The notes under the pieces: generated by a model
What the model saw: only the letters and a program-made list of their open reading frames with translations
What the model was told of the DNA's origin: nothing
Database searches by the model: none
Shown here: piece by piece, positions 23,759 to 61,166 of the stretch
Layout of the letters: each line of letters starts with the position of its first letter
How positions within the stretch are numbered: position 1 is the first letter of the stretch
Source of the DNA: Tabrizicola sp.
GTDB lineage: Bacteria > Pseudomonadota > Alphaproteobacteria > Rhodobacterales > Rhodobacteraceae
NCBI RefSeq assembly: GCF_016793705.1
Contig: NZ_JAEULO010000035.1
Coordinates: 62,001-126,000, forward strand
Length of the DNA: 64,000 bases
Direction of reading: 5' to 3'
Position numbers and translations under genes: made by a program

Positions 23759-26700
23759 TCATGCGGCACCGTCCAGCCTTGCGGCGATGGAGTTGCGGCG
23801 GGTCTGCCAGAGGCCCGCGTCGCGCAGGCGGCGGAAGAGGTCTTCCATCGCGGCCAGCGCGGCAGGGTTCTCGCGGGCGAGGAAGTCGCGGACCTCGTCG
23901 CGGCCGAGCGTGGCCTCGTGGTAGAGGTCGAAGAGATGCGGCGGGACGACCTGCGCCAGATGGGCGAATGCGGCCATGTGGTCGAGCGTTGCCGCGATCT
24001 CGGCGCCGCCGCGGAAGCCGTGGGTCATCATGCCCTGCGCCCAGTCGGGGTTGGCGGCGCGGGCGCGGGTGACGCGGGCGATTTCCTCGGTCAGGGTACG
24101 GGCGTGGGGGGTGTCGGGACGGGTGGCGTCGAGGTGGTAGAGGGTGGGTTTCGTGCCACCGAGCTTTGCCACGGCGGCGGCGAACCCGGCTTCATGCGCG
24201 GCGTAGTCGGCGGCGATGAGGACATCGGTTTCCGGCAAGTCCTGGGCGTGGACGAAGGCCTCGGCGCTGAGGACGCGCTGTTCGAGGGCTTCGCGGGCCT
24301 CGGTCGACCCGCCGTCGGGGCCGATGGCCCAGCTTGAGGCGGCGAGCCAGGCCTCTCCCGCGGCCTGGCGGGCCTCGTCGGTGAATGTGTCGGCGGCGGT
24401 GCCCATGCCGAGACCGTAGAGGCCGGGTCTGGGGCCGAAGACCCTTGCGCTGAGGGTGGTGTAGGGGTTGTCCTCGGGGGTTTCTTCGCGGTGCGACAGG
24501 GCCACGGCGCCGGCTTCGAAGAGTTGTGCGAGGGTGGGGAACACATCGCGGAAGAGGCCGGAGACGCGGAGGGTGACGTCTATGCGTGGCCTGCCGAGGA
24601 GGGCGAGGGGGAGGATGTCGAAGCCGGAGACGCGGGCGGAACCTTCGTCCCATTTCGGCGAAAGGCCTGCGAGGTGGAGGGCCATGGCGAATTCCTCGCC
24701 CGCCGTGCGCATGGTGGCGCTGCCCCAGAGGTCGACCACCAGCCCGCGCGGGTAGTCGCCGTGGTCCTGCAGGTGGCGGCGGACCAGCTCCTCGGCCAGC
24801 TTTACGCCTTGCGCATGGGCGTTGCGCGAGGGCACGGCGCGGGGGTCGACGGAGAAGAGGTTTCTTCCCGTCGGCAGCACATCGCTGCGGCCCCGGTTGG
24901 GGGAACCGGCCGGGCCGGGGGCGACCTTGTGGCCGTTCAGGGCGGCGAGGAGGCCTTCGCGTTCGCCTTGGCCGTCGCCGAAGATGTGCAGGCCTTGGCC
25001 GAACTGGCTTTCCTTCAGGTCGCAGACGAAGCGGTCGATCCGGGTGATCGCTTCCGCCGGGGTGGCATTGGCGGCGAGGCCGAGGTCGGCGGCGACGCCG
25101 GAGGCGCTGGCCTCATCCCGGATGCTGGAGATGAGGCGGGTGCGGCGGGCGGGGTCGAGGCCATCGGCGGTGGAATATTCGTCGAGCAGGCGTTCGAGGC
25201 GGAGAAGCTCGGGCGGGACCTGGCTTTGCGCCATCGGTGGCGGCAGGTGGCCGAGGGTGACGGCCCCGATGCGGCGCTTGGCTTGCGCTGCTTCGCCGGG
25301 ATCGTTGACGATGAAGGGGTAGATCACCGGGGTGGGGCCGATCAGGGCCTCGGGCCAGCAGGTTTCCGACAGGGCGACGGACTTGCCGGGGAGCCATTCC
25401 AGCGTGCCATGCGCGCCCATGTGGATCAGGGCGTGGAGGGATTGCGCGCGGAGCCAGAGGTAGAAGGCGACATAGGCGTGGCGCGGGGTGCGGGAAAGGT
25501 CGTGGTAGTCGCTGTCCCTTTGGGCGACATCGCCGCGCTCGGGTTGCAGGGCGATGAGCGCGTTGCCCCGGCGGGTGGCGGGGAAGTGGAACTGGCCCTG
25601 GTGGACGGAAGGGTCGGAGGCGGGGTCGCCCCAGGCTTGGGTGAGGTCGGCGCGGAGGGGGTCCGGCAGGGTGGCGAGGGCGGCTTCATAAGCTGGGAGG
25701 GGCCAGGTGAGGGTTTCCGTCAGGGCATCCGGGAGAGGTGCGCCTTGGGTGGTGGTATAGCCCTCGGCGGCGAGGGTTTCGATGAGCGCCTCGGTCGAGG
25801 CGAGCGCGTCGAGGCCGACGGCATGGGCCATCTGGTGCGCGCGTCCGGGGTAGGTGGAGAGGATCACCGCCAGTTGCTGGTCGGCGGCGGGGGTGGCGGC
25901 GAGGCGGTGCCAGTGGGTGATGCGGTCGACCACGGCCTTGATCCGGCCTGCGTCGGGGCGATGGGCGAAGCGGGAAAATTGCAGGTCGGGGTCGCGGCTG
26001 CCGGGGGATTTGTGGCTGACGAGGCCTGCGAGGATGCGGCCGTCGACCTCGGGAAGGACGACGTGCATGGCGAGGTCGGCGGGGGAGAGGCCGCGGTCGG
26101 AGGCCAGCCAGTCGCGGCGGCGGGCTCCGGAGAGGGCGACCTGGAAGACCGGGCAGGTGGCGGCGTCGAAGGGGGTGGAGCCGTCGTCGGACTTGGCGGA
26201 GAAGGCGGTGGCGTTGAGGATGGCGACCGGGGGGTTGGTCGTCAGGTGCGGGGCCAGCCAGGTGGCGAAGCCGGGGGATTTCAGGCTGGGGGCGAAGACG
26301 CCGTGGGCGGGGAAGCCCTCGGCGCGCAGGGCGTGGATCAGGGCGTCGATCGGGGCGGTATCGCCGGAAGTGAGGTAGCTGCGGTAGAAGGTGACGAGGA
26401 CGGCGCCTTTTGGCTCGGGCGCTCCCCCCACCCCATCCCTCCCCCACGAAGGGGGGAGGGAGGCGCGGGTTGTGGTGTCGGGATGATCCTGCGGCGTCGC
26501 ATTTGTGGAACTGGCGGCAGCCTGGTGCCTCCCCTCCCCCTCTGTGGGGAGGGGTGGGGGGTGGGGGGCTTCCGGGGCGGGAATGACGCCCCGGTCGGGG
26601 TCGTAGAACCCCATCTGCGGGACCGTCTTGTCGCCGGTGACGGGCGGGACATAGAGGCCAGCGGCCAGTGCCAGTTGCGCCAGCGCGGCATGGGCAGCCA

Positions 26701-27184: not shown

Positions 27185-27408
27185 GCCCCCCCACCCCGAC
27201 CCTCCCCCACGAAGGGGGGAGGGAGGTGCGGGGCGGAAGTGGCGGGACCGACTGGCGGCGAAAAGCCTTGCACGAAGGGCGGCGGTCGGGCGCCTCCCCT
27301 CCCCCGCGTGGGGAGGGGTCGGGGGCGGGGGGAGCTTGCCGAAAGTCGCGCCAGATGCCAGGCGTGCCCCCCCACCCCATCCCTCCCCCACCGGGGGGGA
27401 GGGTGGCT
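27185..27408. repeat. Three REP-like palindromes between cobW and cobN
   Basis: Units at 27185-27227 (forward), 27291-27334 (inverted) and 27366-27408 (forward) share the ccaccccatccctcccccac / gggggagggaggg core. The first two form a pair like those in cobN and lptE. They fill most of the 295-bp gap 27152-27446, where I see no gene. Confidence 0.85.
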
Positions 27409-27446
27409 CCATGCGGCCAGGGTTGGACAGGGCACGGATCACGCTG

Positions 27447-56903: not shown

Positions 56904-57917
56904 CTACCGCCGCGTCATCGCGATGCGGATCAGCGCGCGTTCCATCAGGGCCATGCCCGGTGCCTTGCTGGCGGACCGCAGCGTCAGGTCGGTCTCCAGG
57001 AGCACCGCCACCGCCTGCTCCAGCGCGCGAGTGCCCCACTGCCCGGCCTGCCGCCCCATCGCGTCCTTCTGCTTGAAGTTGACCCGTGCCTTCTGGATGC
57101 CCACCCCCGGACCTGCCGGGTCGGTCGCGGCCGCGTGCAGGATGCGGAAATGCCGCAGCGCCCCGATGCAGATCGTCACCGGCAGCACGCCCTGCCCCTC
57201 CAGCCGCCGGAACAAGGGGCCGATGGCCGCACTCCGCGCCTCGGCCACCGCGTCGATCAGGTCATCCACCTCGGCCTCGATGGTCGCGGGGGCCATCGCC
57301 GCCACGTCTGCCGGGGTCAGGGGCGACGGATCGCCATGTTTGTAAAGCGCGATCTTCTCCAGCGTCTGCCGGAAATCGCCGGGGTCGAGCGCGCGCGCAA
57401 GGGTGTTGAGGTCGTTCATCGCCTCGCGGTCGATGTCGCGCAGCCCCGCCTTCTTCAGCGCATCCTCGATCTCTTCCCGGCTGGGCGGATCGTCGTACAG
57501 CCCGATCGAGACCGCATTCGGATGCTTGTCGAACAGGGTCTTCAGCGCCGACTTGCCCGTCAGGTTGCCCGCAGTGACCACGATCCCTGCATCGCCCGGT
57601 TTCCACTCCTTCAGCGCGACGGCCACCGTATCGGCCAACCCGTCGGTGGCCTCCTCCACGAAGGCCACCCGCGGGCCGGGGAAGAACCCCACCGCCTTGA
57701 TCGCATCCAGGAGCAGGCTGCCATCCTTGCGCAGATCGGCCCCCGACATCCGCGTGAGCCGCATCTCGGCCTCGCCCTCGGGACCGACCAGCGCGGCAAT
57801 CGCCTCTTGCCGCTTCAGCGCCACCCGCATCGCATCGGCGCCGAAGATCAGAAGGCCCGCCCGCGCAGGATCGGGCTTCGCGCAATACCGCGCGGCCTCG
57901 ACCCCCTTCAGGATCAT
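56904..57917 (-). CDS. holA: DNA polymerase III delta subunit
   Basis: Clamp-loader subunit that opens the beta sliding clamp. The 337-residue protein has the delta N-terminal AAA-like domain (LLIFGADAMRVALKRQEAIAAL, GFFPGPRVAFVEEATDGL) and the C-terminal collar. It overlaps lptE by an ATGA junction, in the conserved alphaproteobacterial leuS-lptE-holA order. Confidence 0.9.
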   Translation of the reverse strand: MILKGVEAARYCAKPDPARAGLLIFGADAMRVALKRQEAIAALVGPEGEAEMRLTRMSGADLRKDGSLLLDAIKAVGFFPGPRVAFVEEATDGLADTVAVALKEWKPGDAGIVVTAGNLTGKSALKTLFDKHPNAVSIGLYDDPPSREEIEDALKKAGLRDIDREAMNDLNTLARALDPGDFRQTLEKIALYKHGDPSPLTPADVAAMAPATIEAEVDDLIDAVAEARSAAIGPLFRRLEGQGVLPVTICIGALRHFRILHAAATDPAGPGVGIQKARVNFKQKDAMGRQAGQWGTRALEQAVAVLLETDLTLRSASKAPGMALMERALIRIAMTRR

Positions 57918-58552
57918 GGCAGGCTGGCCGAGGCCGCGATCAGCCGGGCGACGATCTGGTCGGCGAGGATGCGCATCAGCCGCAGGCTTGCGTCCTCTTC
58001 GGCGGCCAGCTGGGCGACCGTCGAGCCGGTGGCGGAATAGGCGGTGAAGCTCTGCACCCGGCCGCCCGTCACCTGCGCCCCGGTCGCCCGGTCGGTCAGC
58101 GCGTAGTCGACCACGCCTTTCAGGTTGTAGCGGGTGATCTTGTTATCCGGGGTGATTCCCACGCCCACGGTCTCGGTGGTGATCGTGTAGGCCAGATCAT
58201 AGCGGATCGACTCGGGGCGCCCCAGCCGTTCCTCCAGCCGCTCGACCAGGTCGAAGGCGTTCTTGTCGGTCGGGTCCTGCACCCAGACGGTTTCCGTCAG
58301 CTTGCCCGCGCTGCCGCCGGGACCGTAGGCCGGGGTGAAGCCGCAAGCGGCAAGGGCGAGGGAGGCGAGGATCATTGTCCGACGGGTCAGGCCCCCCCCA
58401 CCCCATCCCTCCCCCACCGGGGGGGAGGGAGGCGCCGGTCTTGAAGCGCTGCGCTCGATGACAGGCGCAACAGGTCCCCTCCCCCCTTCGTGGGGGAGGG
58501 TTAGGGTGGGGGGGCACCCTGTTGTGGAGGGGCTACGGTCAGACGACGACAT
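57914..58552 (-). CDS. lptE: LPS-assembly lipoprotein LptE, with repeat-derived N-terminal insertion
   Basis: Outer-membrane lipoprotein that plugs LptD in LPS export. The product from 58552 is 212 residues. MSSSDR is followed by about 51 Pro/Gly-rich residues encoded by a REPIN-like element (58391-58515 and flanks), then [21 protein letters not shown] with lipobox Cys70. Without the insert the Cys would be near residue 19, the normal place. The ATG at 58552 overlaps the leuS end by 14 bases, as expected of the original gene start. The alternative ATG at 58375 leaves only 10 residues before the lipobox Cys and no positive charge. Confidence 0.8.
58391..58515. repeat. REPIN-like inverted palindromic pair inside lptE
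   Basis: Left unit 58391-58433 (ccaccccatccctcccccac core) and inverted right unit 58473-58515 (gggggagggttagggtgggg core), separated by about 40 bases. It matches the units at 26423-26570 and 27185-27408. Open in the lptE frame. Confidence 0.85.
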
Positions 58553-61166
58553 TGATGATGCGGCCCGGCACGACGATGATCTTCTTCACCGGCTGCCCGG
58601 CAAGGAACCTGACCACATCCTCGTCCGACAGCGCCAGCTTTTCAACCTCGCCCGTGGCCATATCCTTCGGCACGCTGATTTCCGCCCGGCGCTTGCCGTT
58701 GATCTGGATCGGCAGGGTCACGGTGTCGTCGACCAGCAGCGCCGCGTCTGCCTTGGGCCAGCCCGCCTGCGCGCAAAGGCCCGCGCCGCCCTGCACAGAC
58801 CAGATTTCCTCAGCCAGATGCGGGGTCATCGGCGACATCAGCCGTGCCAGCGTGCGGATGGCCTCTTTCATCACCGCAGTCGAGGCATTGGCCTTGGCGA
58901 TGGTGTTGGTGAAGGCATAAAGGCTGGCAATCGCCTTGTTGAAGGCGAAACCCTCGATCCCCTTCGTCACCTCGTCGATGGCCTTGGCGGTGGCCTTCGC
59001 CAGGTCGGCATCGCCCTCGCCCTTGTGGTCCGCAGGCATCTCGCCGATGCGGGCCGACAGGCCCCAGACGCGGCTCAGATGCTTGAAGGCCGCCTCGGCA
59101 CCGGACGAGGTCCATTCCACATCGCGCTCCGGCGGGCTGTCCGACATGACGAACCAGCGGGCGGTATCCGCGCCGAAAGCCGCGATGATGTTCATCGGGT
59201 CGACCACGTTCTTCTTCGACTTCGACATCTTGGCCGAGGGGATGATCTCGACCAGAAGCCCCTCGTCGCTCAGGGCGCGGATAAAGGCATCGACATCATC
59301 CACCATGTCGAGCGGCGGCGGAACAGTCCCCCGCACGGCGATCCGGCGGTCTGCCAGCGTGAAGATGGTGACGTCTTCCGGCAGGTGATAGACCGGGCGG
59401 CCGTCGGCGTCGGTCGTCCGGTAGATCTCATGCGTCACCATGCCCTGCGTGAAGAGCGCGCTGAACGGCTCGATGGCCTTTGCGGGCAGGTGACCGGTCT
59501 TGTGCATCGCCCTTGCGAAGAAGCGGGAATAGAGGAGGTGCAGGATCGCATGCTCGATCCCGCCGATATACTGGTCGACGTTCATCCAGTACTCCGCGTC
59601 CTCCGCCACCGTGGGCGTCGTCGCGCGGGGGGCGGTGAAGCGTGCGTAGTACCAGGACGAATCGACGAAAGTGTCCATCGTATCCGTCTCGCGCCGCCCC
59701 TTCCCGCCGCAGCTCGGGCAGGTACAGTCGCGCCAGGTCGGATGCCGGTCCAAAGGGTTGCCCGGCACGTCGAAGCTGACGTCATAGGGCAGCTCGATGG
59801 GCAGGTTTTCCTTCTTCTCCGCCACCACCCCGCATTTGGCGCAATGGATCACCGGGATCGGGCATCCCCAATACCGCTGGCGGCTGACCCCCCAGTCGCG
59901 CAGCCGGTATTTCGTCACGCCCTGGCCGTAGCCCTTCGCCTCGGCATGGGCGATGGCCGCCGCCACGCCGTCGTCCCCGGTCTGCACCGCATCACCGGCA
60001 AAGCCGTCGACATAGCGCACCCGCTCCGACTTCATCGGCACGAAAGCCTCGTCCGCCGGGGCGTCGCCCTCGACCGGCGCGAAGACCGGCTTGATCGGCA
60101 GGCGGTATTTCGTGGCGAAGTCCCAGTCCCGCTGGTCATGCGCCGGGCAGCCGAAGATCGCCCCAGTGCCATAGTCCATCAGGATGAAGTTGGCGATCCA
60201 GACCGGCAGTTCCCAAGCCGGATCAAGCGGATGCTTCACCCTGATCCCCGTGTCATAGCCAATCTTCTCTGCCGTCTCGATTTCCTCGGCCGACGTCCCA
60301 CCCTTGCGGCATTCGGCGACGAAAGCCGCAACCTTCGGGTCGCCCTCCAGCGCCTTCGCCAGCGGATGATCCGGAGAAATCGCCGCGAAGGACGCCCCCA
60401 ACAGCGTGTCAGGCCGCGTCGTATAAACCTCCAGCTTCTCAAAGCCTTCCGGAGCCCCAACCGTCTCGAACGCGAACTGCAACCCGCGCGACTTCCCGAT
60501 CCAGTTGGCCTGCATCAGCCGCACCTTCTCGGGCCAATGCGTCAGCCCGTCCAGCGCCGACAGCAGCTCTTCCGAGTAATCGCTGATCCTGAAGAACCAC
60601 TGCGTCAGCTCGCGCCGCTCCACCGCCGCGCCCGACCGCCAGCCCTTGCCGTCGATCACCTGCTCGTTGGCCAGCACCGTCATGTCGACCGGGTCCCAGT
60701 TGACCACAGCCGCCTTGCGGTAGACCAGCCCGGCTTCCATCATGTCGATGAACATCGCCTGCTGCTGGCCGTAATACTCCGGGTCGCAGGTCGCCAGTTC
60801 GCGGCTCCAGTCGATCGACAGCCCCAGGGGCTTCATCTGCGCCTTCATGTCGGCGATGTTGCCGTAGGTCCAGTCCTTCGGATGGCCCCCCCGCTCCATC
60901 GCCGCATTCTCGGCGGGCATCCCGAAGGCATCCCAGCCCATCGGATGCAGCACGGAAAACCCCTGCGCCGCCTTGGTCCGCGCCACCACGTCGCCCATCG
61001 TGTAGTTGCGCACATGCCCCATGTGGATGCGCCCGGAAGGGTAGGGGAACATCTCCAGCACGTAATACTTGGGCTTCGACGGATCACGCCGCGCCGTGAA
61101 GGCCCCCGCCGCCTCCCAGGCTTCCTGCCATCTGGGTTCGATCACCGAAGGGTCATAGCGCGACAT
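58539..61166 (-). CDS. leuS: Leucyl-tRNA synthetase
   Basis: Class I synthetase, 875 residues. HIGH-type motif in [17 protein letters not shown], the CP1 editing domain ([34 protein letters not shown]), a zinc-type Cys pair ([10 protein letters not shown]) and KMSKSKKN are all present, followed by the anticodon-binding domain. Its last 14 bases overlap the lptE start. Confidence 0.97.

Follow-up and report, generated by a model that had tools for sequence, protein, structure and literature searches.

The window analyzed here is a stretch of 64,000 nucleotides from a contig of Tabrizicola sp., in which the end of leuS overlaps the start of an open reading frame for the lipoprotein LptE. The features of this junction are as follows.

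57914-58552, minus strand: lptE open reading frame, 212 amino acids when read from the ATG that overlaps leuS; Pfam LptE (PF04390), E 2e-9
58539-61166, minus strand: leuS, whose stop codon TGA (58539-58541) lies within the first lptE codons
58550-58552, minus strand: lptE overlap start ATG, formed by a leuS Asn codon (AAT) plus G
58382-58534, minus strand: 51 inserted codons, a Pro/Gly-rich and stop-free leader
58343-58384, minus strand: twin arginine (RR), hydrophobic core, and lipobox LAAC (Cys codon 58343-58345), conserved in relatives
58473-58518, minus strand: first REP-like unit, in the lptE sense
58437-58472, minus strand: spacer between the two REP-like units
58393-58436, plus strand: second REP-like unit, in the opposite orientation to the first

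The overlap, counted from the lptE ATG to the end of the leuS stop, is 14 nucleotides, and the PF04390 domain follows the lipobox, which identifies the window gene as LptE. The insert of 153 nucleotides (exactly 51 codons) is placed between MSSSDR and R-T-M-I-L. The ORF coordinates agree with a preliminary description of this DNA, which had claimed that the MSSSDR start overlaps leuS by 14 bases and that about 51 stop-free codons of a palindromic pair separate it from the signal. Relatives without an insert begin with MSSSDRRTFL... or MSSFNRRF..., and the repeat of the window therefore lies inside an otherwise short lptE leader.

The insert is composed of two inverted units of about 46 nucleotides and their spacer. 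The inverted arms, 58393-58425 and 58482-58514, are 33 nucleotides long and 85% complementary, and folding of the inserted stretch as RNA gives −106.4 kcal/mol (z −5.6), with none of 200 shuffles equally stable; that is, two inverted REP units make one long hairpin. An Rfam search of 58000-58900 returned 10 matches, all below the gathering scores and mostly to microRNA models that fit the hairpin. The window genome contains 29 matches to the insert at E ≤ 1e-3, self-matches included, and at least 37 to a covariance model of the unit (best 150 of 1846 candidates scored), so that the genome search for further copies proposed in the preliminary description was positive. Across 32 genomes of the genus the covariance model yields between at least 0 and at least 93 matches per genome, with a match in 31 of 32, these counts being lower bounds from the best 150 candidates per genome. 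The 21 genomes whose lptE has an insert contain more copies than the 9 that lack one (Mann-Whitney p 0.0014), in a comparison that leaves kinship in and counts the lptE copies themselves. No common CGTC or GTAG tag is apparent in an alignment of 23 units, whose flanks are only a few nucleotides long.

Sixteen other REP sites, in 13 stretches of the window genome, were placed relative to the ORFs predicted by a codon-usage script; 4 are inside coding ORFs and 12 outside, and 10 of these 12 lie 3-102 nucleotides past the 3′ end of a gene, a location that, like the arrangement of two short palindromes in opposite orientation around a spacer, resembles that of REPINs mobilized by a RAYT transposase. 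A REP cluster is also present in the window, beside cobN:

27186-27411, no strand assigned: REP cluster of three units, between cobN and cobW

However, a search for RAYT/Y1_Tnp gave no matches in the window genome and none over the cut-off in the 32 congeneric genomes, several of which are incomplete, with weak matches below the cut-off in 2 of 32. A strict REPIN, mobilized by a RAYT, is rejected because RAYT is missing over the cut-off in 32 of 32 genomes; the earlier label “REPIN-like” holds for the inverted pair and the hairpin, and the window repeat is REPIN-like in shape only.

LptE was found in 31 of the 32 genomes of the genus, and the leuS-lptE junction is readable in 30, a set that includes L242 and leaves out L033, which is cut by a contig end. 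An insert is present in 21 of these junctions, a five-codon extension in 2, and neither in 7; all 30 have the overlap ATG in phase, with an open frame. The distance from the leuS stop to the Cys codon takes 17 distinct values between 40 and 274 nucleotides, and therefore at least 16 length changes must have occurred on any tree; the chance that 16 frame-blind changes would all be in phase is (1/3)^16 = 2e-8. On a tree of 39 rows (the 30 congeners and 9 others), built from leuS and mature lptE with the leader excluded, at least 23 leader length changes are needed and all of the lengths leave a remainder of 1 on division by 3, although 12 of its 36 inner branches are unsupported and the rows share ancestry. 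Stops in the lptE frame are found in 0 of 23 inserted leaders (the 21 congeneric leaders with L040 and L049 from outside the genus), as against 17 of 46 in the other frames (Fisher p 3e-4). The inserted leaders are non-hydrophobic, the highest mean over 11 residues being −1.0 to 1.2 compared with 2.1-2.9 in the h-region, and the longest would add 78 residues to the n-region (L023). Seven pairs of leaders of the same length were compared by codon position, with the signal core included. Differences at third positions outnumber those at first and second positions in 6 of 7 pairs, but in 6 of 7 the nonsynonymous codon changes are at least as many as the synonymous ones, and the test is weak. Because the hairpin is weak in 14 of the 23 in-frame leaders and the peptide is poorly conserved, it is the frame, rather than peptide sequence or RNA shape, that appears to be constrained. 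The alignment of lptE 5′ ends that the preliminary description had proposed thus indicates that the leader is kept in frame and, by comparison with relatives, supports its claim that the repeat is read from the overlap start; the leader is probably translated.

In L033 (G012:C223), which lies at a contig end, repeat-like codons are in frame and RR is missing before the hydrophobic core, whereas the other 30 congeners have RR. The inserted lineages include, to judge by record titles, cultured isolates (Tabrizicola soli, T. flagellatus, T. thermarum, and Rhodobacter calidifons), so that proteomics is feasible.

With respect to the history of the insert, parsimony gives 9 changes between the inserted and uninserted states and an uninserted root. 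Of 14 other leaders, 4 (L017, L023, L024, and L242) match the window spacer, taken as 50 nucleotides with the unit ends, above all 300 shuffles, but no such match was found in the other 10, which points to an old insertion common to some lineages together with losses, transfers, or new insertions. G282 and G280 each belong to a genus with a single genome.

Outside the genus, LptE was found in 381 of 395 genomes of the family. The 108 loci that were read form a non-random sample (28 best family matches and 80 picked rows, some chosen for long open frames), of which 105 were parsed and L056, L063, and L136 were not. Of these 105, 103 have an overlap ATG in the frame of the lipobox, all but L087 and L130, and a typical leader places about 15-24 residues ahead of the Cys, e.g. 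MSSSDRRTFLLAALALAGC. The distance from the leuS stop to the Cys codon reaches 73 nucleotides or more in 5 of 105 (L040, L049, L058, L133, and L087): the leaders of L040 and L049 are REP-like, that of L133 is Pro/Arg-rich, and L087 has no overlap ATG. The locus L058 (G421, of another genus) has an in-phase leader of about 108 residues (d 310) that is not REP-like by eye, and long n-regions are therefore not special to the repeat; an equally long N terminus of different sequence, which the preliminary description had regarded as evidence against its interpretation, was encountered in this one case. In a set of named genomes that overlaps the congeners, 78 loci were parsed and 71 of them have an in-phase overlap ATG. 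Among the 7 exceptions, L191, L194, and L201 are out of phase, L223 has lost the ATG, and in L172 and L238 the leuS stop seems to have been misplaced; in the seventh, L237 (Pseudogemmobacter bohemicus), the overlap ATG and the lipobox are apparently in different frames (d 56), perhaps through a frameshift, a sequencing error, or a misparse.

The repeat family is also found in other genes. The four sites in coding ORFs of the window genome are in cobN, a P-type ATPase gene, waaA, and an Amidase_2 gene, the first of these being in the window.

26421-26570, minus strand: in-frame REP pair in the middle of cobN, about 50 codons; predicted ORF start 27151

Among 26 readable genomes of the genus, the window genome being one of them (27 were matched, one of them cut), the corresponding CobN linker has 12 residues in 11 and exceeds this length in 15, reaching as many as 87; the longer linkers are all multiples of three. 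Four of them (L256, L261, L262, and L272) contain a different repeat, RPGLDPGP, and two of these also hold the first kind. Of 29 genomes, the window genome among them, 6 carry an insert in the P-type ATPase gene, which we take to be ccoI and whose neighbor is ccoS-like; in the other 23 the stretch is constant at 16 residues. In waaA, 6 clear and 2 degenerate REP-like inserts are present among 26 readable of 28 matched genomes, own included, many of the remaining matches being to more distant waaA. In the window genome, the in-frame REP units occupy L250 1501-1542 (G000:C42) in the ATPase gene beside the ccoS-like gene, L247 1501-1545 (G000:C37) in waaA (Kdo transferase), and L005 1501-1548 (G000:C9) in the Amidase_2 gene, the product of which has an N terminus, LTHPSPNFGERRGG, that looks repeat-derived as well. 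The repeat-coded peptides, such as GEGWGGG, TEGEG, and WGGDGGGG, are encoded in more than one of the element's reading frames. Thus, the palindromic repeat stands in frame within several unrelated coding genes (lptE, cobN, ccoI, and waaA), and at the mid-gene positions in cobN, ccoI, and waaA the ambiguity of the start site is absent. Insertion is therefore recurrent and extends beyond lptE, which goes further than the preliminary description.

Three other readings of the lptE leader need to be considered. Tat signal peptides accept long n-regions, and if LptE of this family were exported by Tat a long n-region would be tolerated for that reason. An RR pair is present within 20 residues of the Cys in 97 of the 105 parsed loci from outside the genus, and S/T-R-R in 23 of 23 inserted leaders. 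However, RR is not obligatory, since KR, RK, RH, or one lone Arg takes its place in the other 8 of 105, and in the named set three Pseudorhodobacter have Lys only; moreover, Arg is favored in high-GC genomes. A twin arginine conserved across the family, as expected of a Tat lipoprotein, was thus not found among these loci, and export of LptE by Tat is considered unlikely.

A similarly low probability is assigned to the reading that the palindrome is kept for a function in RNA, in which a leuS-lptE hairpin would tune mRNA stability or coupling and the peptide would be a side effect. A very stable hairpin is predicted for 8 of 23 leaders (L009, L017, L023, L024, L026, L030, L038, and L242; z −5.0 to −9.4, 60 shuffles each), and REPs are described in the accessible part of PMC3733652 as lying mostly downstream of coding regions and as possibly acting as RNA. 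Against this, 14 of 23 leaders have z between −2.6 and +0.1 (L027 is intermediate, −3.6) and are still in frame, 7 of 30 congeners have no insert, and the same family occurs mid-gene in cobN, ccoI, and waaA. A conserved hairpin with an RNA role as the main constraint is rejected, because 14 of the 23 in-frame leaders are without a strong one. An RNA hairpin in the path of the ribosome could, on the other hand, hinder translation, a point against the reading of the leader in frame.

The third possibility is that the element is effectively extragenic, lptE starting internally near RR and the in-frame reading being an effect of annotation; in the accessible part of PMC3733652, many REPs at the N termini of ORFs are said to be possibly extragenic for such a reason. 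At least one in-frame ATG, GTG, or TTG is present within 20 of 23 inserted leaders, and in 9 of 23 a start codon stands exactly two codons ahead of RR (GTG in 7, ATG in 1, and TTG in 1), giving M[S/T]RR...; 3 of these 9 (L018, L025, and L242) have an SD-like tetramer upstream. In L191 and L194 (Cypionkella) and L201 (Rhodobacteraceae), a stretch separates leuS from lptE and a new ATG precedes the signal, e.g. MNATRLNRRLFLL, the old ATG being out of phase; this is an alternative solution to insertion at the leuS-lptE site. Internal initiation predicts, however, that the upstream frame should drift, whereas it is in phase in 30 of 30 junctions over 17 lengths. Furthermore, the codon two before RR is CTG, CTT, CTC, CTA, CCG, or GGA in 14 of 23 leaders, being CTG in the window, and 3 of 23 (L027, L031, and L040) have no in-frame ATG, GTG, or TTG between the overlap ATG and RR. 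The only in-frame internal candidates in the window are GTG 58417, which is within the hairpin and has no SD-like tetramer, and ATG 58375, which follows RR and would leave no positive charge; an internal start is therefore unlikely in the window, but may be used in some relatives because of the 9 leaders with a start codon two codons before RR. All 21 inserted congeners have AAT as the Asn codon that makes the overlap ATG, whereas AAT accounts for 66 of the 309 Asn codons counted in leuS bodies from 32 loci. This test is weak, however, because L191, L194, and L201 retain AAT although the old start is out of phase. As a general account of the inserts, the internal start is regarded as quite improbable. 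Among the three options offered by the preliminary description, tolerance of the element by the signal peptide fits best.

The interpretation that is favored, with good though not complete confidence, is that a transposase-less REP family enters coding DNA and that its lptE copy is read in frame from the overlap ATG as a long n-region. This rests on features of the DNA itself, namely position, palindrome, frame, absence of stops, recurrence, and like behavior in cobN, ccoI, and waaA. Transposase-less REP-type palindromes, in units of about 46 nucleotides that are often inverted pairs, would be scattered through Tabrizicola genomes, and one pair would have landed just after the leuS stop, a common location for REPs. 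There the element would have become coding because lptE already starts inside the end of leuS and leaves no intergenic space; since the usual place of a REP is at this site already lptE leader, only in-frame copies should survive. Ribosomes would initiate at the overlap ATG and translate through the palindrome, and the 51 codons would provide a long, non-hydrophobic n-region ahead of RR and the lipobox, which the signal peptide presumably tolerates. Signal peptidase II (Lsp) cleaves before the Cys and should remove the leader, so that the repeat-coded peptide would be absent from mature LptE. With the reading frame as the only strong constraint, inserts would arise, shrink, and vanish in multiples of three.

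In-frame palindromes are already known from Rickettsia and several other species. The Rickettsia palindromic elements (RPEs) are described, in the accessible parts of PMC3733652 and PMC10969869, as small palindromes in frame in unrelated alphaproteobacterial protein genes, and R. conorii proteins with an N-terminal RPE-1 are reported there to be expressed in vivo. The Tabrizicola repeat shares with them, as far as these parts describe them, in-frame palindromes inside several unrelated genes but differs in its high-GC host, its units of about 46 nucleotides often in inverted pairs, and its use of more than one reading frame; it differs also in its site in the n-region of a lipoprotein signal, which is variable across about 20 species. 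Intragenic REPs of the GTAG and CGTC types, e.g. those of O. terrae and Thauera, occur as in-frame singles and dimers that are sometimes N-terminal, and CGTC elements prevail in alphaproteobacteria without a dedicated transposase, according to the accessible part of PMC3733652, the main text of which has no occurrences of Rhodobacter, Tabrizicola, or Paracoccus. The likeness lies in the in-frame singles and dimers within genes, some of them N-terminal, whereas the Tabrizicola units show no standout tag (in 23 units with short flanks). The N-terminal cases were left ambiguous in that part of PMC3733652 since the start codon could be downstream, but in Tabrizicola the relatives give a test of the frame. 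No description of in-frame repeats in lptE or in Rhodobacteraceae was found in the open-access literature, as judged by titles and abstracts; the novelty of the present case lies in its host group, in sites that vary repeatedly from one species to another, and in the location in a signal-peptide n-region with a built-in test of translation.

The 30 related junctions thus constitute a natural frame test that favors translation of the leader. A broader and more tentative reading, which is considered possible rather than probable, is that Tabrizicola has its own RPE-like system, in which palindromes with no recognizable transposase repeatedly enter, and persist in, the housekeeping genes lptE, cobN, ccoI, and waaA in frame at disposable or linker sites across species and steadily supply new protein segments, the lptE n-region being a safe harbor. 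Should the in-frame reading at lptE hold, the n-region of a lipoprotein signal can be lengthened by as many as 78 residues, as in L023, and length alone would be no ground for trimming start-site calls at such loci.
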